Origin: Hetaerina americana
Lineage: Eukaryota; Arthropoda; Insecta; Odonata; Calopterygidae
Length of the DNA stretch: 64,000 nt
Reading direction: 5' to 3'
NCBI GenBank assembly: GCA_022747635.1
Contig: JAKTNV010000010.1
Span: forward strand, 43,334,027-43,398,026
Position 1 is the stretch's first letter. Every line of letters starts with the position of its first letter. Below, piece after piece: positions 14,701 through 60,529 of the stretch. A program made the translations under genes and the position numbers. The notes under the pieces are model-generated. The model was not told the origin of the DNA and ran no database searches. It saw only the letters and a list, made by a program, of their open reading frames with translations.

Positions 14701-17700
14701 AGTAGTAGTGATATTAGGAGAAGAATTGCAGTAGGCAAATAAACTTTCACAAGGAGGAGGGAGCTGATGACAGGGACGTTGAGTAAGGATGCTGGGGAAA
14801 GGCTCATTAAAATTTTGAAATAGAGCGTAGTTATGTACAGCACAGAAATATGGTCATTAAAGCAGGATGATGGGTGTAGATTGGAGACTTTTGAAATGAA
14901 AGAGTAGAGAAGGTTGGAAAATATGAAGTGGGCAGAAAAGAAAATAGTTCTAGAGAAAACAGAGAAGTGCTAGGCATGTTTGAGGAGGTAAGATGATTGT
15001 TGGTAGAAGTCAAAAGGAGGTAGGAAAGATGGATACAGGACATGTTGGTAGGCGATGGGTTGTTGAAGACTGTGAAAGAGATAGAGAGTATTGGGGAAAC
15101 AGGGAAGAGGAAGGGATAGGATGGGTGTATTGGATGGAATGAAGGGAGGAAAGAAGAATGTGGAATTGAAGAGGTATTTATTGTTGTGCCCAATCCAGGT
15201 TGTGTTTTTTTAGAATGGGTAAGCAAATGTATTTTTGTGAAATTTTTTGGGCTGTCTCGATCCAAAACTTACCCTAACTGTTAGAATTCAAATAATACTA
15301 TTAATTATCATTTTCATCTTGGGTATGGAATTGATGCTAATTAAGTGTATAGGCCTTTGAAAATTGGTGATTTAACACCCCAAAATAAGGTATGGGTATC
15401 CTAGATAATTTTAAGTCCACAAGGTGCTTTCAGCAGAAATAATAAAAAAATAAGGTCTTTTAATGAGTGAGATCCCAAAGTTATGATGTGCATTTGCTGT
15501 TCATATGCTGTATAGTATCTTCCAACGTATAGTGACACTAGCTATTGCAGTAAGGGGTGTATAAAAATACTTTTCTCTTTTATTAGGTGAATACTTTTCA
15601 AGTAATTGTCATTAGTGATGGGGAGTCTTCATATGTTGCCATACTTTATCCTGAGGATGGTATCCAGTGGGTTCAAGGGACAGGCAAGTCATCAAGCCTC
15701 CCAGATGCAAGGGGCCAAGCTGGCTTTGTGTCAGGCGATGGACGTTCGCACATACTACGTGGATCGGGTACCCATCAGATCCGGAATATAGACAAGTATG
15801 TAACTGAATTCCTTTGAAAGGATAACTCTTCCCAGAAAGTTACTCTAACCATAAAGAGAGCAAGCCTACTTTATAATACAATGTACAATACTGCTTATAA
15901 TACAATACATATAACCTTTACAATACTACGTCTACTGGTAATATATCAAAGGTAAATTAGGGATGGTCTATAATAACTATTATTGAGCACAGTAAGCAAT
16001 AGAAATTTACAGGTAGAAAGAAAAGCTGTCCCAGCAAATTTAGTGATTATCATGGAGTACAAACAAATAAATAGTCACTCAGAGGGAGAAGTAGATTGCA
16101 TCAAAAAATTAGAAGAAATAATTGACATTGCATCTGGAAGGAAACCGTTGGTAGTGATAGAATTGGGTTGGTTAATTGGAACACATTGGTGGGTGAAGGG
16201 AGAGTTTGATAATAACAAAGACTTCCTTAAAACACCATAAAAGACATTGGTATACGTACATGGTGGAGTGAGAAACAGGTAGGTAATAGTCATATTACAT
16301 CATGGATGGGTATGGATTTTGAAACCAAATCATGTACTCACAGTTTTCTGGAACTAGATGCAGATGCAGGCCCTAATATAGTTTTTTTGAAATACAACTC
16401 AATATTCATAGAAATAAAGTGGAATGGGAAAGTTGGATATTTGAACATTAATGAGAGTTTAAAGGAAGGATTATCAAGAAAAACTTGTGAAAAGCAGTAT
16501 TTTGGAATATTGAAATATGTAAACTGAAAGGATAGGTTAATAAATAAAAACATAAATATGAATGTTTGCACAAGTAAAAGTAACCGAGGGAGAATTTTTA
16601 TATACAGTTATAGGTTGTGGAGTACGACATGATTGGATTATCCATTATCAACAGTAATTCCTAACACAAATTCTCAGAGCATGATGAGAAGGATGGGATG
16701 GGCGTTTAGCTGAGAACTGGGTGATTGATTGGGTGATAAAATCAGTTAGGCTTACAGGTGACCAATGAATAGTTTTTCAACAGCCGCTGGTTTGCACTTA
16801 TAGAGTAGCACCTTGCAGGGCCAATGCAAGAGGAATAGAATGAAGATTAATGACAAGTTAACCAAAGTCATGAAATTTTCAAGAAGTGGGAGGGCTAAAT
16901 AAAACATTAAATTAAGAGGGACTGATGCAGCAGAACAGGGAAGACTTAATGTATTTGTGTGGTATTTTTGAGGAGAATGGATGAAATTTTGTGAAAACTA
17001 GGAGAAGAATTGTGCTGTCGAAAGTAGTAATTCCAAGGGGAATAAAATTATTGACAGTGATACTAAGTACAGATGTAAGGGAAATACAAGTAAAAATAAA
17101 CATAGTTGCTGGAAACTATCCAATAACCACTATTAAAAGGTAAATTACCTTCATTAATGATGATTAATTCTTATTTTCATCTAAACTTAAATGTTAATAG
17201 TGGAAATGATGACTTTATTGCAAATTTAACATGGCATAATTTTTTTAATATATGTAAATTTATATTGTTTTATGCTATAAAACTTTCAGTGTTGTTAAAT
17301 TGTTTTACTAACTAAATATTTAGTCAACTGATTTGTGTTGGGAGATAATTAAAATTGATAGGATAGTTCCAATAATGAATAGAGTCATACATACTATTCT
17401 TTCTATGCCAACCTGATTAAAAAAAAATAAGTGGAACTATTAGGTAACTGTATTGCCTTAAACCAATCAAACATCTAGTACTTCATGAAGGATCCATGCT
17501 GCTTCCAGGAATTACCGTTGCATAGGTGTGTTGAAGGACAACTGTTTTGGCCTCAAGTGCCTTCAACCTGAAGACACTACCAGAACTGGGGGCGAAACAG
17601 TTGTCCAACAACACACCTACGCAATGGTAATCCCCAGAAACAGCATGGAGCCTTCATCAGATCGACGTCACGGAAGCCGAAGGATTAATCTAGTACTTCA

Positions 17701-20700
17701 GTCTCATATTTAGTATTCGGTCTAAATTAATACTGCTTGTGAGTATAAATAGGCTTTCCTATCACCTTTAGCAACCATCTTAAGGCACATGATATTTATC
17801 ATAAATGTTAAGTTTGTCTATCATATACGATCTGCAATGAATTATTGTGACAATTTTCACCTGCAGGTGGTCAAATACAGGTATACCCGGAAAGTGGGTC
17901 TTTCATGTGGGGGACACTGGGCCATCTGGAAATATAGCAGAACCAGACATAGGAAATACAGGTATGATGAATGAATTTATATTGCAGCTATTGCTAGAGT
18001 TTCGGCTGTTATTAGATAAATAAAGCTGTTCAGCTTCTCTTTGATGCCTTTGTTTCCTGGGACTGAATACATTCTCCTAATGAGAGGTGGAAAACTATCC
18101 TGAGTTGCAGGTGATAGGTGCCAGTTGAGAATCTGGAAGTCTAAAGGTCAGAGGGGTGTGGTTTGGGGGAGGACTGAAGAAAGTAATCAAAAGGAAAAAA
18201 ACATGTAAATAGTGTTTCATATTTTATTCAGTACTAACATTGAGTAATAAAATCTCATGAAATGTTAACATATTTGCAGTATTTTTTAGACAAGATCAGG
18301 ATTCGACTAGAAAATTATGCCCGTAAAATTTTTAAAACATCCAAACTTAAAATTTTCAAAATGCTACTTGACCAGCAATTATAAAAAACTTATATTAAAT
18401 AGAATTCAATAGCAATTGACAATGATGGCCATTCACTATGAGCAGAAAATTATTTTTGAAAGTAAAAAAGTATTTTCATGAACTTAGAGTAAAAAAATTC
18501 ATCTAGGGCTATAAAATAATTTTTAGCTTTCATTCATTCTTATCAACACTAGAAAAATGATAATAAATTGCCAATATTCAATATAAACCCAAGGAATTAA
18601 GGCATAAGCTTAGGAACAAGTCAAGTGAATTGCAATGTTTTCATAACATGATATTTGTGCACAGAAAAATTTAAACACTGGCATTGGAGTGATATAGTGG
18701 GTTATATATGGCTCAAACTCCTAACTCACCTGCAATGTTCCACAAAACTTAAAATACAAAAAACTCAGCAACATAATCCAAACGGGCTCCCAAAAATGTA
18801 CATGTGGCACTTACTGCCATTGATGAACTTCCTTATAAGGGTGTTAGAGTCAAAACTACCAACCTCTTCTTTGTAAATATGTGTAAAGTATATACAGCCT
18901 AGTCGCTTGTACTTCATAGGAGACCCCATCCACTTCTTCAAATCTCTTCAGGACTGCAAAATATGTTTCAGCTGTAGCCATAGTGATGTTGATGACTGAC
19001 GGAATGCTTAGCATCTTATGAAGCAATAGAAAAATTTTCTTAGATACATCAGGAAGACTGCAACATCTTTAAGGCTGTAGGGTGGGGCTATGTTGAAGAG
19101 TTACTAGAAGATGTGAGACTTGCTGGAAAGATATTCAGGGTTAAATCCATATTTTTTAAGGGTGCTTCAAGTCTCAAAACTGTTCTTAGATTCTTAAGTG
19201 TGAACCAAAAACAGTCATATCCATGGCTGTCCCATCACCAACTCCTCCATGCATGAATTTCGATTGAATTCCCCATGCTAAAACTACCAGAACTTCATCA
19301 AAGATGATTTTCATTTTTTTCTTTTGTGAGACATCGTATTGGGGGCTGTGGTGTGATCAATACCATTAAGTTAATGTGCTTGGATATACTGTTTGCCTTA
19401 AGGTAGGCAAACAGTATATCCAAGACCATAGTTTTCTTGCTTCTCTTTTATTTCTGATCACAAGAAATTAAAATAAGTGCTCTATATTGTGTAATGAAGA
19501 GTTCTTCTAACGAGCTCTCTGCAGGTCTCCAAGAATCATAGAGAGTTTTTGCCTTGAAATTTCAAAGAATAAGGCTAATTTCTTGAAGGGCCCATCCACT
19601 GGCCTGGCCAAAAGACTTCCCAATATTAGCTTCATTTGTTTAGAGATTTGGGACTTAAGAGACTGTTAAATCTGCATTAGGGTATGCAATGTCATTAGTG
19701 CCTGAAGGAGTGCAGGATGTGATGCTAAGAATACTCAGCCAACATTCGAATTGCTCATACATTTGCATTTTCAATGGTGTGGGAAGAGTAAGGTAGCATG
19801 AAGAATACCACAAAAATCCTAAAGTGATATTTTATTATTTGAATGACATTTGACAGCTTCTCATGTGGTATTTTTCCAATCTCAACCTCCTAAACTCTCA
19901 CATATGGTCTTAATTCCTGCATCATTATGGGTTTTTATTCGGCCTCTACCTACTTCTGCCTCAACTTGCACTGTTGTCTGATTTTTCTGATAATGTTAAT
20001 GCAATGAGACTTCTGAGTATTACCACCAAAAGAAGGTAAGGGAAAATACTATGTCTTTAATTTAATCACTAGTCTTATTGGAATGGTTATTATAGCTTAT
20101 TTCATTTTCTCTTTGCGACAACTTTACTATCATTACTCGGTCATGAATAAATTTCATGAAGTTTGTGATTTTTGCTGTATTTACTTAGAAGTTTTAAAAA
20201 TATTTTATAGACATCATCCACTTCATTCACAGTTGGTTATCTAGGATATACATGTAACTATTTTTTCAAAGTGGTCATTTTGATTATGAAGATTAAATTG
20301 TTACTATAATACTTTGTCAATGGTCTCTGAAAGGAGGATAGTATCTGATACTGAATGTATAAAATACTGTTTTTATGCAAAAATGAGGAATATTTTATTA
20401 CAAGCACATTTAGGATCATCATACTGACAGAGAGATAGCCATAATTGATAAATTAAGCAGGGCCTCAGGGAAATTCTCTTGAGCATCTATTTAATAATTT
20501 TTTGAACTAGAAGATTTAATTGAGGGAGGGGTCCTTCCTATCAAATTTATCACTACGTTGCCTCTGACTCTACCAGTATTGATCAGTATGTACTTTAGAA
20601 ACACGACAACAATGGATGGCATATCATTTATTTGTCAATAAAAATTTCTATACAAATCACATACATATTTACATATAACTTCAAAAGATACATGACTTCT

Positions 20701-26700: not shown

Positions 26701-29073
26701 TCAAAAGGAGGTATTAAGATTTCATTTTCATGATAAATTGCTGATTTTCTCGTTAATGTGTTCCTATTCTTCTTTTACAGTTCCTTGTGACATTGAAAAC
26801 AATTGCTCTCCTTTAGCTGTTTGCTCTTTCAATGAAGTTGCAGAAGAGCATTTGTGTGTCTGTTTGCCTGGTTATGTTGGAGATGGCTATGTTTGCCATG
26901 ATGCCTCATCATACAATGCAAGTAGAGGCCCACCCACCCCGTCTTGTGTCTCAGGGTCTTGTTGGTGTCCAGAGGATTATGATTATGATGGAAGAGGGAA
27001 CTGCATTGAGAAACCAACTGATGAGGAAAGTCATGGAGACTGTAAGTTATGCTAACACAAATTTTATTACAAGTTTTCAGCATTTCTTCTGATGAATATA
27101 TTTTTCTAGAATTTTATTGAAGTTTTATATTAAGTTAAAATGGCCACCAAGATGAGGAAATAAATGTGAAATTAGAATATGTATTGATATCCATTATTGA
27201 AATAGAAAGAAAGACTCGTACTTTTCCACAGATTTTATTATAAGGCACGACGCGTTTCACCGACTTGCGGCATCATCAGGTACCTGATGATGCCGCAAGT
27301 CGGTGAAACGCGTTGTGCCGTATAATAAAATCTGTGGAAAAGTACGAGTCTTTCTTTCTATTTCAATAATGGATATCAATTACTTCCACGAAGTGAAGCC
27401 TGAAACAATAGAATATATTAGAATATGTATACTTATGACCGATAAAATGCCATATCTAGGTCATTTTACAAAGTTTTATAAAGAACTCTGTCATCCCATA
27501 TTCAATTATTTATCCTTGCACAGCTTGACCAAGCAATCAGTTATTCTCGTTTAATTTTATAAATAGCAGGAATGATGTGGGTTGTTGAGTAGAGGACATG
27601 GATCTATGTAAGAACAAATAAATAAATTATTAAATGCTTGATGCTATTAAATCTCATGCATGAATGAACTCCACTATCCTCTACCACTTCAGACTTGAAA
27701 ATTCCGCATGTTTATATGGAGGTCTTTTAATCCCTCAAACTCCTATGTGCCTGCAGATATTGAAACTAAATATTTAAAAAGCATGTGTCTGTTGTACTTG
27801 TTTATTTTGTTTCATTTTTGAATATTAAAAAAAATGTTTTTGTGATTACTAATTGAAAATACTGGACATTCTCCCTGGTTTGATGCCCCATAAGCCCTAG
27901 CCTATGCCCACAGCCACATGGAAAAATTCACACACATTTCATTTATCATTCTACATTTTTTGAATTGCAAGATTTACACACCATTTAAGGCACTTTCCCT
28001 CCCCTTTGCATTTCACAAGGTGACAATTGAAGTCCCCCTAGGACACTTTCCCGTGACATTTTATATCCCTCTTCAATGAGGACATATTATTGACTTTTTC
28101 CTTCTTATTACGCGGTCTTTCATTGCACCTAATCTATTTTGTTATGTATTTATACTTTTATATACCCAAGGATTGAAAGAATTCTTACCTGATGAGCCTT
28201 TGTCAACATAACTTCATCGATTATCTCAATAGCATATATGATGATGAATACAAAACCACTTGGTGAATTTTTTAATGAAACATTATGAATTTTTATCTTA
28301 TAAGCCATTATTATTACACCAATACAAATGAGTAAATCTAATTCAATTATGGCCATTTAAATGCATGTAACAGACAAAGACGTTTAAAAATATTTCTAGT
28401 TCTTCTCCTCTACATCTTTTAGATAATTAAAATTCTTATTGTTGGTTTTTACAATATTTGCAAGACTATGTTGAAATTTTCATGTGTGAGCACTTCTCTG
28501 TGAAAAATTGCCTTATACTGTGGTATCACTTTACATCCTATGATAAATAGTTATAGTTTAACAAGCATCATAAGCTAGGAACTTCATTCAGTTTTAACTT
28601 TTGCTCTTATATTGCATAGTTTTTTTTACCCTTGTGGCGTGTCTACACAAATTGGTTACATAGACTGGATAGCCGTCTGTTTAGGTGCTTCCTCTTGAGT
28701 ATGTGCCATTTGATCCTGTTGAAAGCCCTTGTAGTGACACCTGTACATTCTTGTGCTTGATATAAATATTTTATAGCAGTCCAATTATTTGGCTGACTCT
28801 CAAAAAATGTACAACAGTGGTGTTTGTGAAGTGAAAACTTCTCTCCTGATTGTCAAAGAGTATGGAATGTAGATTAAAGAGAAAAATCATCACAGATTCT
28901 CTATTATTAGTCAGTGCTTTGGACCAGAATATGAGAAACTTTAATAAGTGGATGAAAACAAGTAATAATCCAGTTAAAATTATGAGAGTTTGTGTGAACA
29001 TCAATTCATTTTAAAACCTGAAATTAAAGCCATTATATTGTGTATTTACATATATACATACATACATACATAC

Positions 29074-29123
<50 letters not shown>

Positions 29124-30453
29124 TACCTTGATCAAAAATTTCCCGGAATTTATTCAGAAAATTAAAAATACAAGTTTATTCATCTAAATCTATATTGTCC
29201 CCTTCAAAGTAATCCCCATCGACTGCAACACACTTATGCCAGCGCTTGATCCAATCCTCGAAACATTTTTTATATTCGGTTTTCGGTATGTCCATCAGTG
29301 CTTCCTGCGATTTTTCCATTACTTCCTCTCGGCTGCTAAAACGCGTTCCCCGTAATGGTTTTTTAACTCGATTGAACAGAAAGAAGTCACAGGGAGCCAA
29401 ATCAGGTGAATTCGGTGGCTGTTGGATGGTATTTGTTGCATTTTTCGTCAAAAAATTACGAATAATGATAGCACTGTGCGACGGTGCGTTATCATGGTGC
29501 AAAATCCACGAGTTTTCTGCCCACATTTCTGGTCTCTTTCGGCGAATTGCTTCACGCAAACGTCTCATAACGCCCAAATAATACTCTTTGTTTACTGTCT
29601 GGCCTTCTGGCAAAAATTCATGATGCACTACACCGTTGTAATCCATGAAAACCGTCAGCATTGCCTTCTTTTTTGACTGAAAACGACGTGGTTTTTTTGG
29701 TCTCGGCTCATTTGGTGAACGCCATTCACTTGCCTGATGTCTGGATTGCGTGTCGTACTCATAAACCCACGTCTCGTCTCCAGTAATGATCCTTTTGATG
29801 AATGTGGGATCGGATTCAGCCTCGCAAATCATGTCTTTTGCGACGTCAACACGGTCTCTTTTTTGCATGAAATTGAGGTCTTTTGGAACCAACTTTGCTG
29901 CTACACGACGGAAACCCAAATCATTAACCACAATGTCTTGGGCGGATCCATAGGCAATGTTCAAGTCCTCCGCTATTTCTCTGATGGTTAATTTGCGGTT
30001 ATTGACCAACATTTCTTTTACTTTATCAATTTTTTCACCGACTTTCGATGTCGATGGTCTGCCACTGCGTTCATCATCTTCGATTGACTCACGACCACTT
30101 CTGAACCGCTCGTGCCACTGGTAAACGACCGTTTTTTTTAGAGAATCGTTGCCGAAACACTTTTCCAACATTTCCTACGTCCGTGCGCCACTAAATCCGT
30201 TTTTTACGCAAAATTTAATACCAGTTCGTTGTTGCAAATTTAAATCCATTTCTGCAATTGTAAAAAATCGCCAACACACACAGAGATAGATGTACTCTTG
30301 GCTACGTAACTTTTGCAAATGTCAAGTTATGACACTAAGATTTAAAGGGAATATCAACAACAGATGTACCGATTTAACAAAAAAAACAGAACTCAAATCG
30401 GAACGATGGGAGCGCCACACGGTGGTTATTCCGGGAACTTTTTGATCAAGGTA

Positions 30454-30523
<70 letters not shown>

Positions 30524-33500: not shown

Positions 33501-36500
33501 GAATGTTGAAACTCATACTATATTAGCAATAAAAAGAAGAGTGGAAAAATCCAGTGTGTAAATCCATGTAGTCAATAAAAATTCAGATAAAATCAGAACT
33601 CCCTCTAATTCGGGTGGGCACAATGCTAGGTGATCTCTCACATATTCAGTGATTGCATGATGTCAGTATACTAGATGATTGCATGATATAAGTAAATTAC
33701 ATGTTTGCATGTTGTTAACACATTTCACAGCCCTTGACATATGATAATACTCTTTTGGATAAATAACCTCCATAACTAAGTTCTATTGAAAAAATCTGCA
33801 TGTTCAAAGACAAATTTCTAAATTGACAACAAAAGCACCCTTAAAATGCAACAATTTCAGAGTGTAAAAATCATTCGCCTTGACTGGGATTCGAACCCAG
33901 ATCCCTCAATATCCGGTCGAGTGCTTTAGCCACTTAAGCTACCGAGGCGTCCTCTTAAACTCTGAAATTTTGGGGCTTTTAAAGGAACAAGATGTTGTGA
34001 CGAAATACCATACATACAATGTCACAGGCATTCGTAGTCGTGCGCGAGGCGCCACAGTCCACGAGGTTAAAGCCAACTTTAAACACTAATGGTGTTTTCA
34101 CTTTGACAAATTCCAAAGAAACCGACTGGATATTGAGGGATCTGGGTTCGAATCCCAGTCAAGGCGAATGATTTTTACACTCTGAAATTGTTGCATTGAA
34201 ATGCACATTAGCGGATGACTCCGTTAAAAGTTACTGTTGCGGCATCTCCCGCAGTTTCTTTGGAATTTGTCAAAGTGAAAACACCATTAGTGTTTAAAGT
34301 TGGCTTTAACCTCGTGGACTGTGGCGCCTCGCGCACGACTACGAATGCCTGTGACATTGTATGTACGGTATTTCGTCACAACATCTTGTTCTTTTAAAAG
34401 CCCCAAAATTTCAGAGTTTAAGAGGATGCCTCGGTAGCTTAAGTGGCTAAAGCACTCGACCGGATATTGAGGGATCTGGGTTCGAATCCCAGTCAAGGCG
34501 AATGATTTTTACACTCTGAAATTGTTGCATTGAAATGCACATTAGCGGATGACTCCGTTAAAAGTTACTGTTGCGGCTTCTCCCGCAGTTTCTTTGGAAT
34601 TTGTAAAAGCACCCTTTTTGAATGTACTCGTAATAATTACATGGGATTATGGCAATCAGGGTATTGCTAGCACAAAGGTAAACCTAAATAGAATTTTGAG
34701 TTAGGTGTCTATACTCTATAATTGCAACATTTATATTTATTGAAAGTTGTTTTATATATAATTACTTTAGCCAAGTTTTGGGTACTATGAATATGACTCT
34801 GAAATTAAAGTTTTAAGACAGACTCTGAATATTCTACAATGCTCCTAAGCATTCATTTTTGAAAATGGAGCTTAACTGGGCCGCAGTTTGTTGTATTTTT
34901 CTAAGTGTCTCAAGGGATGTATTTATTGTACTTCACGCATCATGATTTTGTAACTCATCATACCAACTGGGGAAATAAATAAGTTAAAACCGTACAAGTC
35001 TTGGCACAATAATAATTGGTTGTGGAAGAAAAAACTGTTGGATTGAGAATGTGGTCATAGGCAGAGTCTATACACTGAAATGACATTGGTATTTAATAGA
35101 TCAGTGTTTTTTAAAACATATCGCTATTCCATTAGGAATCCTGTGTTAAAAGATAGCTGAGAGAAAACTTAATGCTGACCCTTTGGCTAGTATTACTTAG
35201 GTTATACATGGCAAAGTGCTTGCTTTATTTATTTAAGTTGATAAAAGATGAATGCGCCTACATTAGATGAGTGTTTTAATCTTTTAATTGTGAATTTTCT
35301 TCCTCTTAATTAGTATCGTGCAATGTTGTGAACAACTGCCATCCACATGCTCAGTGCATTTACGTAACCCCCATGGGCCATTATCAGTGTCAGTGCAATG
35401 CTGGTTATGAAGGAGATGGATATGAATGTGAAGAGACTGGTGAGTGAGCGATTAACCAACTTAATTTATGGGCCCTCACATAAATTATTCAACCCTATGA
35501 CTATAGCATTTCAAATTATTTTCTTCATTTTTGGGTAAGTATCACGCGAGAAGCATTTATTGGTCCAAATACGGGTACAAATAACAAATATGGATCAGAT
35601 CTTGAATGATTTTCATTCCCTGGCTCATTGTTGTCATAGTAACTGGAGTGGAAATAATATTAAAATGATGATTAAAAAAACCATAAACACAGTAATCAAC
35701 CCGAAGGTCGGTTTAGTAGGTGATGGTCGAGTTCATCCAGTACTAAGCCCTATATGGCATGTGAAATTCACACATCAGGGTAGGGGGGCCAGCTCCTTTC
35801 CCTGTGCCGGTTATGGTTTCCCAAGGAGACCTGGTACCCGAAAAATCACTTTAGCTTGGGTGGAGCTGCAGGTGCCCAGAGTGCCTTGTCTGGGAATCGA
35901 ACCTGGGACCCTCCGGTCAGCAGTCCAACGCTGTACCCACTGGAATACTGCGACCCACAAATGATGATTATTCTTAAGAAAAAAGTCATACTGATCCATA
36001 CTAGGAAATTATTATAAACAGTCACTGAATTTTGTCTGAGCTTTGTTATAGCTTTGTATAACTGAAGAAGTGCAAACTTTACGACTTTCCCACTCAAACA
36101 TCCATGGTGATTCTTATTACACTAAATGATGTTTATGGCTAGGTTGGCCCAAAAAACTCAAGTTATTAGAGTTCTGAAGTCTCATTGTTTGTTCATCACT
36201 TAAAAAGTATAATTGGTATAAAATTGAGAAAAATTGGGCAATATTTTACTTTTCTACTTTCTTATCACCAAACTGAATGTGTATTCCCTCATGCTGTCTT
36301 TTACCGTACCAAATGTGAAGAGTATAATCGAGTAGTATGAAATCATATGGTGTCATTCCGTTTGTATGATTTATTTGTAGAAGTAATGGAAATTTATTCT
36401 GGATTCTATGAATATTCATTTGTCTCTCTTCTTTTAAAAATATGGCTTGTTGATTGCAGTCTTTAATGAAGTGAATTGCTATATTTTAACCGAGGCTACT

Positions 36501-44910: not shown

Positions 44911-44992
<82 letters not shown>

Positions 44993-47900
44993 CATAGATA
45001 TATATTACATAGATATTTTAACACTATCTATTGACATAAATTTAACAAGGATAAACAGCTTTTTTTTACATGTTAGTTATTTGCTCTAAAAGACATGTAT
45101 TCATTAATTTTAAGATCTTTTTCATATTATGTATTGAACATTTTTTTTTGATCTGTTTGTCTGTTTGGGACAATAAAAGTTTTAGACATTAATATCATGG
45201 TACCATAGTAATGCTTTCCCTCATAATATTAATTTTTTTTAGCAATTAAGGGTATTAAATGAATTTAGAAAACAATAGTGTAGAATATTCATGGTTCAAT
45301 GTTAATGTCTTTTGGCCTCCTAATATGTAGAATTGAGTGTGAATTTCTCTTGATTTCTTGCAGTAATATCAAAACACGAAGGAAATTTCCTCCTGGTGAA
45401 CCAAGGGATGGCTACACTCCGGCTTCCATTTCACCCGACGTCTACTAACCCAGGGCGACCCATACAGATTCAAAACTACCAAGTGGCATTAGGTAAGATG
45501 CCTTTGGCCTCTGTCATGGATCACTCACATAATCCAATTATGATCCATTTCTTGTTCAACATGAAGTAAGGACTAGATTTTCTCTATCATGAGTGTTATA
45601 AAATATAGCAGAAGCTAAAATTAATTTTCATTTTGTATTGTCGTGGTTTTGGTTACTGAAGGATTGAGGTATCTTGTATTATGCTCTCCTTTTAATAGGA
45701 CCTTACGCTTTCTTGACTGTTTCATTATGAAATCCTAAAATCTTCTACATAGGCTGGAAGCAGGTTTATTTTTGCCTTATGATACACACAATCTCCATTC
45801 TTGATATATTTGAAATATCTTATTTAATGCATTTCAATTAATATCTGGTCATGCACTATTATATAATTATTATGGTATTCTTTTCCTTTTGCGACATTGT
45901 ACACAAAGTAGGAATAATTTCTGGTATGATGTACCCACATCATACCAGGGTTAGCATAGGAATATGATGTGAGGAGGTATTTTTTTCCATATTAGGAGTC
46001 AATTCCATTCTCAAAACTTTCTTTACATTTCAGGAATTGATATAGACTGCCAGGAAGGAAGAGTATACTGGAGTGATATTATTGGGAAAACCATTAAAAG
46101 TTCCAAGTATGATGGCTCAGATATACAGACTTTCCTTGATGCTGGTTAGTAATATTGGTTCTGGATAATTGAATGTAAAATAATGCCTGCTGATTGATTT
46201 GATATGTTAAAATAATGCCAGTGTTTTTTCAGATTTAGAATCTCCTGAAGGACTGAGCATAGATTGGGTCTCAAGAAACATTTATTGGACTGATTCATCT
46301 AAGGACACAGTTGAAGTAGCAAATTTGGATACCAAGCTGAGGACAGTTCTGGTGTCAGATGGGCTTGTTAATCCAAGAGGAATAGCAGTTCACCCTTCAA
46401 AAGGGTATGATTGTCTCTAAATCTCTTAATTCCCAACATGACACCAGCCATTGCATTGAGCACTGCATTTGTCCATTAGACAGTAATTAATTGAACCATG
46501 AAGTCTTGGTCTCGCTGCTAAGTATTTCATATTTAGAATTAACGATGGTTAAAAAATCAGGTTTAATTTTGCTTATTTTCATAACCCAACATTTTCTGTC
46601 TTGCAACATTTAAGTTGTAAATCCTTTTTAGAAATTAATTGGCTGTAATTCTTTATTCTTGACCATTGAAGCTAATTACTACCTTCAGTCCCAGTAACTC
46701 TTGCTGCATTTGTGCCTTGGCCTTCCTTGTTGGATCATATTAGTATTTTACAATGTCTGATCATGACAAACCTTATTTCTTTTTTGTAATTTTAATGATG
46801 AATGCTTAATTTGCTGAACTTTTAAAATTTGCTGAATTTAAAATCTGTCCAGATCAACTAAATATCATCTGGACATGAAATTTAATTTTGGGAGAAGGGG
46901 GTAAACACTTGAGAAGTATTATTGATTTTGGATTTTGGAGTGAGTCGAGAGTTTGGTTGGCTAACCAATAATATGCTCCATGCATACATTATTTTGCCAT
47001 AATTGAATGCTAATTATCATATCTCTTAACAGCCATACCTCTAAAGGGAATGTAAAGCTATAAGATGGATAAGTCACTTCAGTGACATCCAAGGTTATGC
47101 AGTAGTATATTAGTTGTTGAGGTGCTGAAGTAAGTCTGTTCTGTAGAGAAACAATAAAACTGCAGAATTCATCCACCAGAAAGTAGGTACTTGATGTATG
47201 AATATATCTAAGAGACTTGGCAGTATGCAATATTGTTTAAAAAGTTCATTTAAATTGATAATAAGTTAAGCCAGTTGCACATGAATATTAAACTCATACA
47301 TTGTTTGCTAAAGATTTTATTCATGAGAGAGTCAAATCAAGCTGGAGAGGCTTAAGAAATAACATCCAATTGGCTTCAGTCAAAGTACTCTTCAATTTCA
47401 TACTAAAAAGAAAGACTCGTACTTTTCCACAGATTTTATTATACAGTACAACGCGTTTCACCGACTTGCGGCATCATCAGGTACAAATTTACAAAACAGA
47501 CAGAGCGAGAATATATAACCTCAGGACAGAGTGGGGGCAGGGAGGGTTGGAAGGATTTGAGAGGGGTGGGGGCTTGCAGGTGCGTTGATGGATTGTTTTG
47601 ACCATGTCCATGCTAGTTTCTCGGAGAGGAGTGGGGAGGGGTATGGGAACAATTGCTCATTACAAAGTGTCGTGTTGGGGTTTACCAAGTGCCTTCTAAT
47701 CTCTAATTGCTCGAGAGCGTCAATTTTTAATCCTTTTGGGAGCTCGTGTAATATCTCTGGGACAAAGTCACTGCTGTGGTCGAATTCTAGTAAATGCTTG
47801 GCGAAGAGAGAGTTGTTATTCTGATTTTTGTGACACCTAGCGTGTTCCTTGACTCGTAACTTGATATTCCTGCCGGTCTGACCGACATAAACGCTGTTGC

Positions 47901-50900
47901 AATCCTCGCATTTCAGTTTATAAATGCCTGATTTGAGAAGGCTATCCTGGGTGTCTTTTCCATTGGCTAGAAGTTTGGAGAGGGTTATGGGTGGGCAGAA
48001 GGCTGCTTTGAGTGAGGTGGGTAGGCAGTTGGAAATCCTATACGAAAGATCTCCCAGAAATGGGATCGAGCACCACTTAAAATCTTTAGATACTGCGGGC
48101 TGTGATACGAAAATGCTTTTTATGGCCATTACTTTTTGTTTTTTCCGTAGTAATGTGTCAACTAGTTTGGGGTTGAAACCATTGTTGGTAGCTATATTAG
48201 TGATATTCATGAGTTCAATGTTGAAGTTTTTGGGGGAAAGGGGGATATGTAGAAGGCGGTGGATTATGGAGTGGAGGGCTGCGTGTTTGTGAGAAAAGTG
48301 GTGTGCGGAATCATTAGAAATTATGTGGTCTGTGTAAGTGGGTTTCCTATAAATCGGTGAGTGGATTTATTATTGTCGGTGAAACGCGTTGTACCGTATA
48401 ATAAAATCTGTGGAAAAGTATGAGTCTTTCTTTTTAGTATGGATATTAAATACTTCCACGAAGTGAAGCCTGAAACAATAGAATATACTCTTCAATTGTT
48501 TGTCTTTGAATTTCCTGCCTCTTTCAAATATCGGTTTAAAATTGCTCTTAGCCAAATATTATTACTGTGGAATATGGGCATTATTTTTATGTCCCTCTCA
48601 TTTTTCTTAATGGATTTAGAAAATGCTGTGGAGTTTCACCATTGTTAACAGAGTATAATAAGTAGAACTGAATCCAGTAGATTGTTTTTTACTAGAAACG
48701 GAAACATATGTAAATGCAACAATTGCAGAGTGTAAAAATCATTCACCCAGGCAGGGATGCACTCTGAAATTGTAACATTCAAATGTATATTAGTGGATGA
48801 CTCAGTTAAAAGTTACTGTTGCAGGATCTCCTGCAGTTTCTTGGAAGCAACACATTTCACAATTGTAACCGACCAGATAGTGGTAATGTTGCATTAATAT
48901 ATCAAATAAATATTTCTGAAGTTTTTCTGTGATCCAAAGGAGACATACATTTTATTGAAGTTAATAGCATTTATTGTGCTGCTTTTCATGTTGCATTTGT
49001 CATTAGGCTATAATGTTCTTATGCTGAATTTTCTTTCCTAGCCAAATGAAAAGTGATAATGATAAAAGAACACACACCCGAGGTTATAGCAAAATAGTGT
49101 AATGCTACTACCTTGCATGTATAAAATTAAGTTGAAAAAATGAAGACTGCAAATTCATAATCATGAATTTTCCAGCATTAAACTTTCAGATTATACATTT
49201 TTCTTTGTTATTTGTGCACAAATGAACATAATTTAAAACCATAGAATGAGTGCAATATGTTTTTTTCAGGAAATTATTTTGGACTGACTGGAATAGGGAG
49301 AGTCCAAAGATTGAATGGGCAAACCTAGATGGATCACAGCGAGCCATATTTCTTCATGGTAATGTTGAGCTTCCAAATTCTCTTGCTTTTGACTATGATC
49401 TGGATGAACTCTGCTGGACTGATGCTGGAAATAAGAAAATAGGTAAGATTAATGGCATTGTAATTCATGACACACTTTATGGATAGCCATTATTTTTTTT
49501 CCATTTTCTATGCCAGTTTTTAGATTATTACTCTGTTTAAATACTCAGCAGTACCTCCCACCGAACGAAGGGTGAACTTGTTAGCAAAATACAGTTTAGG
49601 TCTATAACAACTTTTGCAATGAAAAATTATTTGGAAGGAAAAATGTAGATCATTGCATGTGCGCACGACTACCTAAAAGTATTTAATAATAGTTGATGTT
49701 CACCAAATATACACAATACATATATTCTATGCAGAATCTATTTATCAGGATGATTTCATTTTTTATTATTATCATTTCCTATGCTGTAGTTTACTCTTTG
49801 CAAGGTATTCCCTTGACATTTTTGTGACAAAGGATTATTTAATATTAGAGCTTAAATGTACTTATTGATAGCCTCCATTGGTTGGCAGGAATTGTTATAG
49901 TAATTATGTCATTTGAAGATAGATGCTTCTATTTCATTTGATTCATTATTATTTCAGAGTGTATGGGATTACATTCATCATTAAGGAGGACAGTGGCATC
50001 CAATTGTAGCTATCCATTTGGCTTGACAATTTCTCAAAATAATTACTACTGGACTGATTGGGATACGTGAGTACCTAAATAACAATTTTTTCCGGGATTT
50101 AATTGCCTACAGAAATGCTTGGAGTACAAGGCCTACTGATTACTTGTGAAAGTCAATAGCAAGAGTAACACATACTCAGGCTGAAGGTTCTTATGATACG
50201 TGTGGGGATACAGTATCATTAATCCTAAGGCTTCCGGACGTCTATTTGATGAATTCATTCTTCTTTCGGGAATTTCCATTGCGTAGGTGAGTTGATTGAC
50301 AATTGCTTCGCCCCCAGTCCTGGAGGCGTCTTCAGGTCGATGAACAGTTATCCATCAACTCACCTACCCGACGGTAATTCCCGAAGGTAGAATGAATTTA
50401 TCAATACAGTATCATGTCCGTCATTTGTGCAGTCTTCAGGGGTGAGTGTTGACTATATCTACCTATTTACATGATGCAGTCCAAAAATACAGAAGGTCTG
50501 CTTCTCTAGTCACAATGCAATGCAATTTGAGAAAATGGAATAAGCTTCATACACCCATTAATATGATTATATTTTACCAACATCAACATTTATTTACATA
50601 TTAAAAAACTGGCAATGTGCTTAAAAAATCAGTTCAAATGTATGTAGGTACACAGTTTCAATTTGTTGCTGATAACCAATTACTGCTATTAATTTGTTAA
50701 TAAAGTAAAAATAGTAAAATTACACTTGGTCAAATCACTTGAGCACTATATATGATAAAATATACTATATCTTTGTATACATGAATAATGCGTACTTAAC
50801 ATAGTTATATTTCCTCCAGCCTTTTAAACAGGCTTTAATTTTATAATTTTTGATGAGAAGTTAAAAAAAAGGAAAAGATGACACTACAAATGTACATATA

Positions 50901-53900
50901 CCCTCACCATGTAAATGTTATTAATTAGCCAATTTCAGCCTGCAAGAAGGCCCTCTCCAGGTTCTCAAACCACTCCATCTAGGCCTCTAATTTAATTGTA
51001 GCCATTCCTAGCTGCAATAAGATTTCCATCTGAGAGAGGCTTGTAGCGGGTAGCTTCACAGTATCTTCTCACAACACAGCATACTGTGAGGTTAACCTGG
51101 TACATAAATATGCCTTCCATTAAATTGCCAATACTAAGTATGTGCTCTACATGGAGGCTATGTATCTACTTTATCCTCTTACCATTTAATAATAATACAT
51201 AATTATGTAAGAGCAAAACTAAGAGAACTATGGCTTATGTTCATCAATCATAATTTTCTGTAGTATCAATAATTCAAATAGCTATTTTAATTATCAACTT
51301 ACTCTTTTGATGGTTCACTTCAAAAACATGATGAGAAATACGAAAAGTGAAGAGTCAGGCGCGATGTTGTGGAATCGAGGCATAATAAAAACTTCGTTGC
51401 AATTTTCCACAGTTAAAACTTTATTTCCAACCATGGTTTCGATACACTGTACCACCTGAGGATGGTACAGTGTATCGAAACCATGGCCGGAAATAGTTTT
51501 AACTGTGGAAAATTGCAACGAAGTTTTTATTATGATGAGAAATGTTAACCACAACCAATTTATTCATATCTGGTTCATATGTGGTTCTTTGTGATATATT
51601 ATGTAGTAACCTATTGATTTCTCAGAATAATCTTTACCGCATATGGAATTGAAGTTATTGTCCAATGGGCCCTTTGCTCTTTTTCAGTAATTTGATCAGA
51701 AATGATTTTATGAAGTCTTATGGCAAAATTCCTTCCTCATAAATTCTACACATAATTTGAAAAAAATCTCTTCCTTCATTTTTCCTTAAACTCTTTAGTA
51801 AAACTCTAATGATAAGAAAACCACATAATGAATATGTTTAAGATGCTTTTTTTTAAATAATTGAATTGATGTAACTATCATTGTGTTCATTATCTTTCTA
51901 TGAATACATTGTATATTTAAATGTTTAACCAACTTTTTACTTAATTAAATTACAGGCAGAAAATAGAGAGTTGTAAGAGACCAAATGGAGAGCCAAACAA
52001 GTCCATTGATGTGCCTCTGGGTGGCAGTGGAAAGCTCTATGCCATTGTTACCGTTCCTGAGGAATGCAAACGATGTATGTATGCCTGTTGTGACAATTTG
52101 AGTTGAATTCTTTGCATATTTATTAATAGTGGATATTTGGCCCTCATGCAACTCTAAATTATTAAATTGCAGGCAAGTTCATGACTGGTGTCAGTTGACC
52201 ACTTAATATTGAAGTTATTTTGGTCACCTCACCTCCTCTGGTGACTTATTTGTCCCTTGCATATAGCAGCCAATGAGGCTTTATCTTAGGATGTGGAGCT
52301 TATCTAAGACATAATTGCACAAATAGACCACATTTCAATGCAACAATTTCAGAGCGTAAAAATCATTCGCCTTGACTGGGACTCGAACCCAGATCCCTCA
52401 ATATCCGGTCGAGTGCTTTAGCCACTTAAGCTACCGAGGCGTCCTCTTAAACTCTGAAATTTTGGGGCTTTTAAAGGAACTAGATGTTATGACGAAATAC
52501 CGTACATACAATGTCACATGCATTCGTAGTCGTGCGCGAGGCGCCACTGTCCACGAGGTTAAAGCCATCTCTAAACACTTATGGTGTTTTCCCTTTGACA
52601 AATTCGAAAGAAACTGCGGGAGATGCCGCAACAGTAACTTTTTCTCTACCAACATCCTTGCACTACATCGTTGTCATCAATTCTCATCAATTCTCTCCTC
52701 ATGAAACCTTCTTTGCATGATTCTCTTTCTTATGTCCTAATGGCATTGCCCATTTTGGCCCAAAATCTTATGGGATTGGTAAAGAGTTTCACCTGCTCTA
52801 GCTAATGAACTCCTACTTTACAATTTAATTTAGCCTCTCTCTTTCACAAAAATGATATAGAAAATGATACCTTTCCTGGTAAACCTGATGTTATGATAAT
52901 TACTGACTTTCATTCCTTCTACAGTTTTGAAGTAACACTTATATCATTTCCTCTTTGAAAAGTACAAGTGATAATGGGTATTCCTATCTTACACCTCCTC
53001 CTAACACTGCCCATCCTGGCTCTACATCCCCCACTCACACCAGAGCAGTCTGACACATGCACTGGTTGCAGATTAGCCACCGCTCCCTTCAATAAATTCA
53101 ATCTATGTAGGCAGGCAGGCTTAATTGTAGATGATTACAATGTCATATATCGTATGTACTTGTACATGAGCTCAGTTAATGATCTCATAACTACAATGGC
53201 ATCCCCCTTCCTAGACCCAAACTGATCATCCCCTAATCATTCATTTCCTCTGCTCTTCATCCTCTTATTGATGATTCTGAGAACTACTTAAGCTGCTTGT
53301 AAAATTGGGCTATTTTTCTGTAGACTGCTATATGTAGCTGCCTTTCCTTTTTTTGGGAAAGGAACCAAAAATGACCCCAGTCTTCCTCTCATAAATGACA
53401 ATTGCCATAAACCTTTAAGTAGTTCCACAGCATTGTTGTGTGGCGCCGGTAGAAATGTATGCCTGGAGCTTAGCTATTCTCATCTATATTAAAATCTTTT
53501 CGCATGACAAACCTTACTGTTCTAATATCATTAACTGTCCAATAAATTCACGAATTGAGGCTATAAAAACTTTATTTTGCAAAATTTAGTCTACACTGAT
53601 TTTGTCCCTTTCGAAGGACTCTCCATTAGTTCCATTTATTCTATCTTCTTTTCCACTATTTAAAGTGCCCTTGGAAGTCCACCGCAGTTAGGTTCTATGG
53701 ATACATCTATTCTTGAGTCAAATTTGGTCACACACAAGGCACATAATTTCTCAAATGCTTGAAAACTAGAAGGTAGCACTCGGTATTTACTATTTGTCCT
53801 TCAGGAAGAAATTCATAATGAACAACACCTTAGACATAAAAAAAATCAGGAGCATGACTTTGATTTTTAATTGGCCTTATTATTTCTTTTTGGTTTGATT

Positions 53901-56658: not shown

Positions 56659-57130
56659 TGACACTAGACATTTGACTGTAGAACAACAGACTTGAAATAT
56701 GATAGTGCAAAATAACTGAAAAGTGACTTTGCTGATGTGGAAAACACATTGAATCATTAAAATGTATAGTGAGACATCATTTGGCTACATCCTCATCCAC
56801 GATATAAGCATACAGAAAATTGGTTATTAACACTTATTTAAATTTTGCTTTTGCATAATGGGTCTCAGCTGTATTTTGATAGAAAATAGCTTTTAGATTC
56901 ATTATAGGTATGTTTTTAATGAATCTCACTCATCAATTATTTAATTAGCAATTTAATCATAAAAATAAATTTTGATAATGCTTTTCCCAATCAAAAACTC
57001 CTTCATTTAACAGCACAGGAATATTTTCTCCTGTGGCTTTTGAGGAACTTGATCAAATACCTACTGTTTTTAAAAAGTTTTAAATAAATGTACGAGATTT
57101 TTCACAATAAATAACCAATTCATTCCTGAA
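56659..57130 (+). other. Putative nidogen 3' UTR with poly(A) signals
   Basis: AT-rich sequence after the stop with AATAAA at 56964-56969, 57083-57088 and 57106-57111. The last two, close together, are the likeliest cleavage signals. UTR extent is inferred. Confidence 0.55.
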
Positions 57131-59738
57131 AAATATTTATTTTGTTATTTTGCCTGTTTAATGTAAAACTGACTAAACACACTTGGAGAGCAATAATTTT
57201 GCAATGGGGTTTGAATGAATTGTACGGATGAACTTATGTTTGTGCCAAAGGGAGCATGTGGACTGCTATATCTTAAGTATGGAGAAATCACAGTGAGAAG
57301 ATGGATGAAAATGATGAGAAACCAAAGCAAACAAGATTAAAAATTACTCCCCTTTTTTTTAACAGGTCAACAAGTATTTGTTCATCTCTTTTCCTTTCTT
57401 CAGTTATCTCTAATTCTGTGGAGGATTTTTCTGTCCACTATTATCTACCGTATTCCCAGCCTAAGATGCACTGTGGTTTTTTTCAGGTTAGAATTTATGA
57501 TAAATACTTGGATTAGACAGAAAAGATCAAATTATTTTGATGTTAACACTTAATGAGAAGAAAATTGAATTGTTGCATTAAAAAATTAGAAACGTTTATT
57601 CATCGTATTATCCCAGAAATTCATCATGGCTAGGCCAAAACACCTTTCAGCTCTACCCCCATCCCAAGCCCTACTCTATCTCCATAGCGTAGGAGATGAC
57701 AAGTCGGGATATTGGATATATATCGGATAATAAGGATTTGCAATAGATATCGCTTGATGCGTTGCCATGTCTATCGCATTCCCACGGAGGGAATATGCAT
57801 CCCTAGAGATGTTTAGGGAGTAAGTTGATAATAATAAAAATTAATGATGAAATATATTTCATCCATCCCCCTTTCAATTATTCCTGTTGAAACTAGAATG
57901 AGGTGAGACAACTGGATGGTCACTACAAGAAACCCACAGAGCTACTGGTAATTGTAGGGCACCCTGATATAAAAAATATACATCTTTTCTTTGCATATAC
58001 CTTGTGCATAATCTTTTTTGGCATGGAACGCATTATAAAATTTTACATTGATTTTTATGTGATAAGTTGTTTCACAAGACGAGTGTTTCGTTTACGAGAA
58101 AGATCACGAAACGAATTATGCTCGTTGAATGAGGTTCTACTGTATTGATATTGCAAGATTTTTAGCAATCTAGGAGGTCATTTTGAAGCAGTTTTATACA
58201 CACAGATTTATCCTTTCCATTTCCTCGGTAGTAGCTACAAATAAGGAATATACGTTTGACCCTGAGGTTCAAATTGTCATCATTGTCAATATCTCACTTC
58301 TGAATGGTATTAGTATCACCTATATTCCTGTAAAGTGTTCCATCAAATTCTTATCTATTTAATAAAATATAAAATCCTACTATGTATCATATGGCATATG
58401 ATATGCATTAAAAGTTTTAATAATATTAACCAAATTGAACGAACACACTGTAACGTTGAAAAATAGGATGAAATCCAAAATTCAATGAATATTACTAAAA
58501 TACTAGACTTCAAAAACTTAAGTTTTTAAAACGTACATAAGTCCATTAAGCACATTTTAAAGTTTACTCACTCATCAAAGGACTTCATGATGTGAATAAG
58601 ACGCTGAATTAAGGGATTAATACATTTTTTTAAACAACATTGGTCGAATTCATTAATGTGGCATATTAAGCCATAAATATTATTCAGCAATTATGGGATT
58701 TATGGGATGTGAGCTTCACAAGCGTAAGAATGCAGCCCAAGCGGAGATTCGGGAACCAAGCTGGTAGTCAAACTATTTCCCCCTTTATTCAAGAGCTAAG
58801 CCATTCCATTCTAAGGAGACAAAACTTTTCCCCAACGTTGTTTTCAACGCAAATTTCTTTCAACTCTCTCTCATTTTCTTTCAGTATCAGATTTAAATTC
58901 TAACTTGACCTGCACTTTCATTTGAGGAAACGCACGAAATGGTCATTAAAACCAAAGGCGTCACCCATTATGAACAAATTTCTCACCCACAAGAACACGG
59001 GTCTGAAGTCAGGTATCACTTTTTAAATGTATTCATACAAATGCAGTTTATAATTCATTCCGGCACCGTTTGTGTAGATTACTTCCATAAACATAAACCT
59101 CAATGTTACGCAAATTTAACTTCGGCTCGAGTAATCTAAGGCTATTGAACGCCTGGATTATTTTGCAAAAATGGCAGTTTTGGAAAACCAGCCAAATTTG
59201 CATTATGTTCCCGAGGCGGTATCCTAACCCGCGAGCTTCTTGCAATTAGCACGCATTGTACTTAACCCGAGCTGGCTAAATCATATTTAGTTCCTTAACC
59301 GTAGCATCAATACATTAAAAGTAAACTCGCAAGTTACGCTATAGAAAAATTTCAAACTTAGGCTACTTCTGTCAAATATGGGAAACTTGACCTCTATGGT
59401 ATCGTAAAATATCAAATTTAAAGAAAAACTCCTATGGCCGTAATAAATTAGCACCACTCGTCCAAAAGGAAAAATACGATTGCTGTGATGATTTGTGGGA
59501 GAAGTAATTCCACGAGAATGACCAACCACAGCCTCTCAATCATAATTCTCTTTTGTAGAGGTTTGCGGGAATGTAACTTCCTCGCCAGTGACCAACTACA
59601 CACACCCACACACTCAACCCAAACCGGGATTCTCCACAGGGCTGAAGAGACTCCGCTAAGGATGCCTGGGTTTTAGCCACATATCCGTGACTGTTTACAG
59701 GAATTAAATCGACGTCAGGGACAAACTCAGAGCAGACA
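57131..59738. other. Intergenic, nothing recognised
   Basis: No coding, RNA or transposon signal that I can support. Two partly similar blocks near 59480-59530 and 59555-59605 (gaatgaccaacca / agtgaccaacta) hint at a local duplication. Confidence 0.45.
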
Positions 59739-59951
59739 CTCAAAAACACTCACACATTCAAAGAGGGCCTAAATACTGGGAGAATATTACTCAAATAGAG
59801 CAAAGTCAAGGGATGGCAACAAACAGGGGAAGACGAAGGTGTTGTTGCTGGAAAGGTGAAGGCGCTCTCTGCTGCCATCCCTTGACTTTGCTCTCTTTGA
59901 GTAATATTCTACCAGTATTTAGGCCCTCTTTGCATGTGAGTGAGTGCTAAT
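59739..59951. mobile_element. Foldback element
   Basis: Arms of about 70-80 bp (left contains gagggcctaaatactgg and agagcaaagtcaagggatgg; right contains their complements) flank a loop of about 45 bp with direct repeats (ggtgttgttgctgg, ggtgaaggcgctc). No hammerhead core, no coding capacity, and no clear target duplication. Possibly a TIR-type MITE. Confidence 0.75.
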
Positions 59952-60317
59952 TTATTACGGCCTTTCATGGAGAGGCACACCTTAGTTCTTTAGCAAATCA
60001 GTTTATTTTAGCAAGTGACGCCGTGAAAAAATCTCTGTTTTAAAAAAGGTGAAATCACTGACGAAATCAAGGAATTGGAGGACTTGTTCATGAAACTAAT
60101 AAATAGTCATAATAGGACTCTTGGAAAACTGGAGGCCAAGTCCGAAAACAATGACGTAAATGTAAAAATAATAAGATAGTGAGAGAAGAGTTTGAAGCTC
60201 TCCTGTTCGAAACCTGCAGTGGGCCCATCTTCCATTGAAATCGCTTACATTCAAATGATTAAGTACACGAGCAAGACGTCTCCAATATGGAGCAAAAAGG
60301 CAAGCAAAACTTACACC

Positions 60318-60508
60318 ATGAATAACTGATCGAAGCATTTTTCCACTTGATAAATTTCGATGTATTACATCATCATCAGGTCCTGCCTGATGATGACGTA
60401 ATACATCGAAACCTCGGTCGTAAAAAAAATATCTCGGGGCAAAATGCTTCGATCAGTTATCCATTATTTTTGACTTCCTCCACACTACCCCTGAAGCTAC
60501 TCAATTTG
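60318..60508 (+). mobile_element. Palindromic Penelope-type element with hammerhead-like core (copy 5)
   Basis: About 191 bp with near-identical 11-bp flanks (aaacttacacc 60307-60317, aaacttagacc 60509-60519). Palindrome arms at 60318-60463, tail at right. The tip on + has CTGATGA (60387-60393), a mostly paired stem II, GAAAC (60408-60412), a stem III ACC-TC-GGT, then C as the expected cleavage base. Separate subfamily from the other copies. Confidence 0.72.
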
Positions 60509-60529
60509 AAACTTAGACCGTAGTGATAA

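Follow-up and report, generated by a model that had tools for sequence, protein, structure and literature searches.

The window considered here is a stretch of 64,000 nucleotides of Hetaerina americana DNA (GenBank assembly GCA_022747635.1, contig JAKTNV010000010.1, positions 43,334,027 to 43,398,026 of the forward strand), which harbors five short palindromes and a truncated Penelope-like element (PLE) with an open reading frame (ORF). All five palindromes lie where the initial annotation had placed them, and their spans were recovered by self-reverse-complement alignment (Table 1). Each consists of two inverted arms meeting at a tip, with a single tail beyond the palindrome at one end, and each is bounded by a target-site duplication (TSD) of 11-13 bp. 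As had been proposed, they fall into four families, here A to D: the copies at 17486 and 50220 belong to the same family, and the remaining three differ. By their coordinates the tails measure 37 nt in family B, 41 nt in C, and 44 nt in D. The 13-bp TSD of the family B copy was read by eye, a computed search, limited by its own search window, having given 8. We consider it probable that each palindrome represents one PLE insertion built from two complementary DNAs (cDNAs).

Table 1. Palindromic insertions and the Penelope-like element in the window (positions count from the first letter of the window; pLTR, pseudo-long terminal repeat)
Feature	Span	Strand	Palindrome or arms	Tail	TSD	Other
Family A palindromic insertion	17486..17687	+	17485-17657	right, 17658-17687	17473-17485 / 17688-17700 (13 bp)	
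Family A palindromic insertion	50220..50403	-	50246-50404	left, 50220-50245	50208-50219 / 50404-50415 (12 bp)	
Family B palindromic insertion	27185..27417	+	27183-27380	27381-27417	27172-27184 / 27418-27430 (13 bp)	tip GGTACC
Family C palindromic insertion	51340..51531	-	51381-51534	left, 51340-51380	51328-51339 / 51532-51543 (12 bp)	
Family D palindromic insertion	60318..60508	+	60318-60464	60465-60508	60307-60317 / 60509-60519 (11 bp, 1 mismatch)	
Truncated family B PLE	47398..48485	-	tailless pLTR ~47399-47482; inverted pLTR arm from 48375	tail end 48485	47386-47397 / 48486-48497	GIY-YIG ORF 47521-48366 (-)

The connection to Penelope comes from the window itself. An inverted-repeat scan detected arms at 47399-47465 and 48375-48441, spaced 909 nt apart, and between them runs a 281-codon minus-strand ORF with a Pfam GIY-YIG domain (E=3.4e-6). 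GIY-YIG is the endonuclease of Penelope-like elements. This element, absent from the initial annotation, is flanked by a 12-bp target duplication; its arms match those of the family B palindrome, and the tail at its right end is identical by eye to the tail of that palindrome over 35 nt. Because arms, tail, and duplication agree, the family B palindrome is, judged by its sequence, an insertion of the same kind minus the ORF. In family A, GIY-YIG fragments adjoin an arm at three loci (L023, L039, and L028; tblastn), and among the family C and D copies examined no ORF was seen. The earlier suggestion of a shared mechanism and a Penelope origin is thus borne out for two of the four families (A and B), whose arms and tails match PLEs bearing GIY-YIG ORF pieces. 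The palindromes also display the inverted pLTR-like arms, the tail at one end (optional and 30-40 bp long in PLEs), and the short, variable TSDs by which PLE copies are recognized. As part of the two-cDNA reading, all five are likely to be short PLE insertions.

The initial annotation also described a hammerhead-type core, CTGANGA...GAAA, at the tips. The core is present by strict pattern in four of the five palindromes, and the copy at 50220 carries CTGAAGA...GAAGC, which fits a looser pattern; it is not, however, a defining feature, and in four of nine other palindromes classed in flanking DNA the tip falls within the arm, without the core. Six family strings (A, B, C, D, F, and G) have in common CTGANGA, one nucleotide, a stem of 4-8 bp, and GAAA, with AAAAC in family G and C, D, and F alike, so that the RNA would carry CUGANGA and GAAA on either side of a paired stem II, as in hammerheads. 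The chance of stem II pairing is 0.017 per string for one offset, the best of six offsets being taken and the six strings having been chosen for possessing the core, with core-less palindromes left out of the count. Rfam hammerhead models gave no match in the window (gathering threshold), in 27183-27430, or in the family A copy L015; 27183-27430 returned only sub-threshold microRNA hairpin models, in a lax-threshold trial that covered pieces of families B and A. The cut of a type-I hammerhead we take to fall at GTH after GAAAC. The arms run through this site to the far side of CTGANGA, contrary to the ribozyme-cleaved RNA template envisaged earlier, and since the expected cut falls inside the arms, most templates were presumably uncut. 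Hammerhead mutants insert normally in vitro (Frangieh et al., PMC11167929). A family C mRNA beginning at position -2, counted from CTGANGA, would lack the 5′ strand of stem I, with cleavage then confined to read-through RNA. In the two-cDNA reading, the motif sits at the mRNA 5′ end and is probably a passenger in the insertion reaction.

Copies elsewhere in the genome provide arm-by-arm variant data for families A and C, families B and D being known from the window copies. The family C set comprises 40 scored places, including the window copy, out of 802 first-look candidates; all 40 are full palindromes, a frequency biased by the manner in which copies were located, namely, by likeness to a palindrome. 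Arms differ by 2.3% within a copy vs 4.0% between copies (0/5000 permutations, n=40) and are identical in 11 of the 40, and 34 distinct tip strings occur. The initial annotation had named target duplications in genomic copies as a check, and in this family they flank 39 of 40 copies at a score >=8, compared with 6/1560 mismatched pairs; their length ranges from 8 to 21 bp, with 28 of the 39 at 12-13 bp. In a set of 27 copies, a score of 8 was attained in just 19, against a null of 2.4% of 702 pairs.

For family A, the genome search yielded 82 match rows for the palindrome, L033 and L001 being excluded as duplicates. Of 39 tail arms, 30 are paired with an inverted arm no more than 18 nt away, five are without a partner found, and four have partners across gaps of 78, 302, 973, and 2122 nt; the tail ends at +30 to +32 in 37 of these arms and at +27 to +32 across all 39. 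In a set of 22 copies, arms of the same copy differ by 11.0%, those of different copies by 16.2% (0/5000 permutations). A scan with the tail motif returned 17 hits with at most two substitutions, some of them without an adjoining arm, vs none in the reversed sequence, weaker hits being background. One family A palindrome (L029:4871-5069) has arms that are 99.5% identical and is probably a recent insertion.

The ends of the arms, counted relative to CTGANGA, recur at preferred positions. None of the arms in 30 family A palindromes extends beyond -17, and 26 of the 30 palindromes have an arm end within -17 to -5, on a yardstick that reached -40, so that longer arms were detectable. These ends fall close to TCACT, some 30 nt 3′ of a TATA-like box; TCACT itself starts at -10, 20 bp downstream of TATATATA. 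For family C, 32 of 40 copies have a tailless arm extending to -2, and in 38 it ends within -2 to 0; the yardstick stopped at -2 itself, so that the case for a fixed end lies in the bases beyond it. The tail arm ends anywhere from -2 to +13. In 15 of the 32 tailless arms that reach -2, filler follows, its first base being C in 11 of the 15 and its second variable; for this reason the end is placed at -2 or -3, and the extra C could be either a copied cap G or one further template base. Tips lie at about -10 to -5 in family A, -4 in B (one copy), and -1 in the family D copy, and TATA-like sequences stand at about -39 in A, -37 in B, and -31 in D. In family A a script flagged the box in five of six copies at -41 to -28 (typically -39/-37), the sixth, L028, having none; by eye it can be made out in L036 and L038, and L039 has a poor one. 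Family B has TATATA and family D TATAAA at their respective positions, in one copy each, and these patterns were picked post hoc, uncontrolled, after the sequences had been viewed. Also by eye, GTGGAAAA recurs at a comparable arm position across otherwise unrelated families, including B, C, and D, and is perhaps a protein-binding signal.

From the recurrence of the tip positions and the TATA spacing, we infer that the mRNA start lies at the palindrome tip. The tails, by reading of the window families and the flanking ones, start at or near ATG and can be read as the beginning of an ORF, with FHxI.PE-like peptides in several other families, though not in family A. The arm would then be the PLE 5′ untranslated region (UTR), with the tail covering the initial ~30-45 nt of the ORF. 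This agrees with the organization in A. vaga, where the pLTR includes the first 12 codons and with the tail reaches codon 22 (PMC3846280).

It is conceivable, though unlikely, that the tip is set instead by the reverse transcriptase (RT) stopping at an RNA structure or a modified base, or by a cut in the RNA, rather than by the start of the mRNA. Such a stop would concern the tip only and is compatible with two cDNAs; the tips lie beside the ribozyme-like fold in several families, and a strong stop could give similar tips. Yet the cDNAs traverse stem II and end 5′ of it, several long copies extend past the tip position, and in three families the spacing of the TATA-like sequence is roughly as expected. 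As for an RNA cut, the expected type-I site sits within the arms and not at the tip.

How the two arms arise is addressed by their unequal ends. Of the 40 family C copies, 36 have a tailless arm that extends farther at the tip than the tail arm; the tail arm is the longer in three, and the two are equal in one. In self-priming, which the initial annotation also entertained, a single molecule would fold on itself and serve as its own template. That molecule could be the first cDNA or an antisense PLE RNA, the latter having been proposed for A. vaga PLEs because of palindromes at inverted junctions (Arkhipova et al. 2013, PMC3846280). Self-priming would account for arms of a single source, and for a single tail if the copy halts early; the longer tail arm that it predicts is found in the three copies just mentioned. 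However, a copied arm must be a subset of its template, and in the 36 copies the tailless arm holds tip sequence absent from the tail arm, the opposite of what fold-back of a tail-bearing cDNA would give, while the tail arm holds a tail missing from its partner, so that each arm lacks something present in the other. Moreover, the tailless arm of the window PLE continues into the ORF whereas its tail arm ends within stem II, and the tip of the family B palindrome is without a hairpin loop. Self-priming thus appears quite improbable. Either arm can be the long one: L023 and L028 have a long tail arm, L039 and the window PLE a long tailless arm. Two separate starts would account for both the extra tip of the tailless arm and the extra tail of the other. 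Template switching from one cDNA to the other may still take place at the junction.

Whether the palindrome is copied as a unit or formed anew can be read from the distribution of variants, the two arms serving as mutual controls. In family C, variants 43G and 4G are present in both arms in every copy that carries them (13/13 and 12/12), and del44 in four of five, whereas all 18 variants private to a single copy are confined to one arm (9 left, 9 right); source-RNA variants would therefore enter both arms and later mutations hit one. This pattern suggests that the palindrome is re-formed at every insertion in families A and C, and the lockstep of 43G and 4G between arms indicates that both arms mostly derive from a single RNA, or else from several of the same locus. 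By contrast, a self-propagating non-autonomous family, akin to short interspersed elements (SINEs) or miniature inverted-repeat transposable elements (MITEs), would be copied as a unit. The many similar copies of A and C would suit such a family, as would five rare family C variants shared on one side: 46A is one-armed in three of three copies, on the same side each time, and 21A, 47G, 20A, and 35C each occur in two copies, in one arm only and on the same side. Further, 29A is two-armed in one copy but one-armed in a second, and there is a small side-specific excess in family C (0.00084, p=0.003; 0.0002, p=0.022 after trimming). Copies that share one-arm variants differ in their flanks and are thus separate insertions; recurrent mutation, arms from two RNAs, or a minority of unit copying may explain them. 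The 46A site is at a CpG, and 35C occurs in two subfamilies. Set against unit copying are the two-armed variants just described, the junctions that vary between copies, and the lack of side-specific divergence in 22 family A copies, where a left arm resembles other left arms no more than it does right arms (excess -0.0006, p=0.72). We therefore regard unit copying as very unlikely. The earlier proposal of a class of non-autonomous partners of PLEs fares no better, as the palindromes look re-formed at each insertion in A and C and, with a tip downstream of the TATA-like box in A, B, and D, probably lack the promoter. Two palindromes, L068 of family C and L007 of family A, have arms carrying different subfamily variants and were possibly made from two different RNAs.

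Loss of the middle from long inverted-pLTR copies is scarcely credible: such copies do exist, among them the window PLE and the widely gapped family A pairs, but deletion would not bring as many as 32 of 40 tailless arms to a single RNA position in family C, and the arms of this family are very young, as the 11 identical pairs attest. Two known classes were also considered and rejected. A MITE or fold-back DNA transposon does not fit the tail outside the inverted repeat at one end or TSDs varying from 8 to 21 bp. Animal retrozymes (PMC7229834) are likewise short repeats with type I hammerheads; they are tandem (~170-400 bp) and thought to move via circular RNA, whereas the units here are palindromic and not tandem.

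Under synthesis of two cDNAs, the PLE enzyme would cut both target strands with a stagger of ~12 bp, matching the duplications, and the 3′ ends of both strands would prime cDNA on PLE mRNA. Two fixed start sites near the ORF start would be used, in line with the precise ends observed for families A and C. Site 1, roughly at the ATG, would yield the tailless arm, and site 2, about 30-45 nt further, the arm with its tail. Because these sites are so near the RNA 5′ end, each cDNA would copy only ~75-100 nt of 5′ UTR before halting at the mRNA 5′ end set by the upstream TATA-like box. Head-to-head joining would then produce a palindrome with one tail, and long ORF-bearing copies would result if one or both cDNAs were templated by a read-through transcript. 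The palindromes are probably dead on arrival.

Several observations pull in the other direction. Junction microhomology in family A does not exceed simulation (16/30 vs 46%), no read-through copies of family C were seen among the 40 scored, and a Pfam search of the ORF piece at L023 gave no GIY-YIG match. The shortfall of duplications in the set of 27, the one-armed shared variants, and the post hoc TATA patterns with the negative copy L028 belong here too. Finally, the enzyme shows no start-site difference between strands in vitro (PMC11167929), yet all palindromes classed here are one-tailed, a regularity for which one tail partly served as the criterion in flanking palindromes.

A precedent for two-strand synthesis is found in PAc, the Poseidon PLE of Anolis carolinensis, studied in vitro (PMC11167929). 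There, as proposed here, the PLE protein cleaves and extends both target strands, with RT starting at two internal sites in the 5′ region of the ORF that define the tail between them, and a hammerhead lies beside the ORF start. The start falls in a stem loop 111-118 bp into the PAc ORF, compared with ~0-12 and 44-49 nt by our reading; the RNA was supplied, and the main text reports no palindromic products. In A. vaga, Pen2a (PMC3846280) resembles the present elements in its inverted pLTRs, single 31-bp tail, pLTR with ORF start, and short TSD, and in the placement of TATATATA 20 bp from TCACT, as in family A; palindromes at the inverted junction were noted as well. Most pLTR pairs described there flank ORFs or captured DNA, whereas here arms stand alone, in many copies and several families. 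Solo pLTRs are given there as probable recombination or deletion products, and where self-priming on an antisense template was proposed, the arm data here argue for two cDNAs. Published terminal-repeat hammerheads of PLEs share their core with the palindromes, in which stem II is set off by one nucleotide. The available parts of PMC6431247, PMC12910113, and PMC5718144 add nothing on palindromic copies. Inverted pLTRs, the tail, the TATA sequence, and two internal start sites are thus already published; as far as the literature searched extends, UTR-only palindromes as a class, and the evidence on their formation, are new, no report of the class having been found in a search that did not reach a large share of publications on PLEs, Craig et al. 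2021 and the 2014 hammerhead paper among them.

These strands can be drawn into a broader proposal, which we advance tentatively and rate at a little short of an even chance. The PLE enzyme would copy RNA of one source twice per insertion, once per target strand, with one start site each near the ORF start. Transcripts from the element's own promoter would yield only UTR-length palindromic scars, and full copies would need read-through RNA from tandem arrays, explaining why PLEs occur in tandem. The genome would then contain such scars by the tens of thousands, each marking the mRNA 5′ end and datable from how far its two arms have diverged. PLE insertion is an open question, its inverted pLTRs, tails, and tandem arrays being without a tested in vivo mechanism. 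The palindromes are small, numerous products that expose both cDNA ends, the start sites, the junction, and the target duplication; they favor two-cDNA synthesis over self-priming, predict the mRNA start, offer a self-dating insertion record, and may record how PLEs insert.

Palindromes of yet other families turned up in flanking DNA when 41 sequences (288 kb including the window) were scanned. Nine were classed as of the PLE type, each one-tailed (L003, L018, L032, of which L033 is a duplicate, L034 twice, L035, L036, and L037 twice), with L027:2420-2636 a possible tenth. Extrapolated from ~210 kb of flank, which is no random sample, nine or ten such palindromes would suggest, very roughly, ~70,000 in the 1.63 Gb genome.

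Inverted repeats at 33951, 55077, and 59747 of the window are not of the PLE palindrome type; in those spanning 59747-59946 and 55077-55314, neither a PLE tail nor a hammerhead-like core was seen. The repeat at 33845-34531 is 278 nt long and 99% complementary, with a 131-nt spacer. Each of its arms contains a tRNA-like match, on the minus strand at 33876-33948 and on the plus strand at 34428-34500; another such match lies at 52368-52440 (minus). On both sides of the window PLE, open stretches at 46211-46420 and 49250-49486 look by eye like LDL-receptor-related repeats, and the element may thus sit in an intron of a gene with such repeats.

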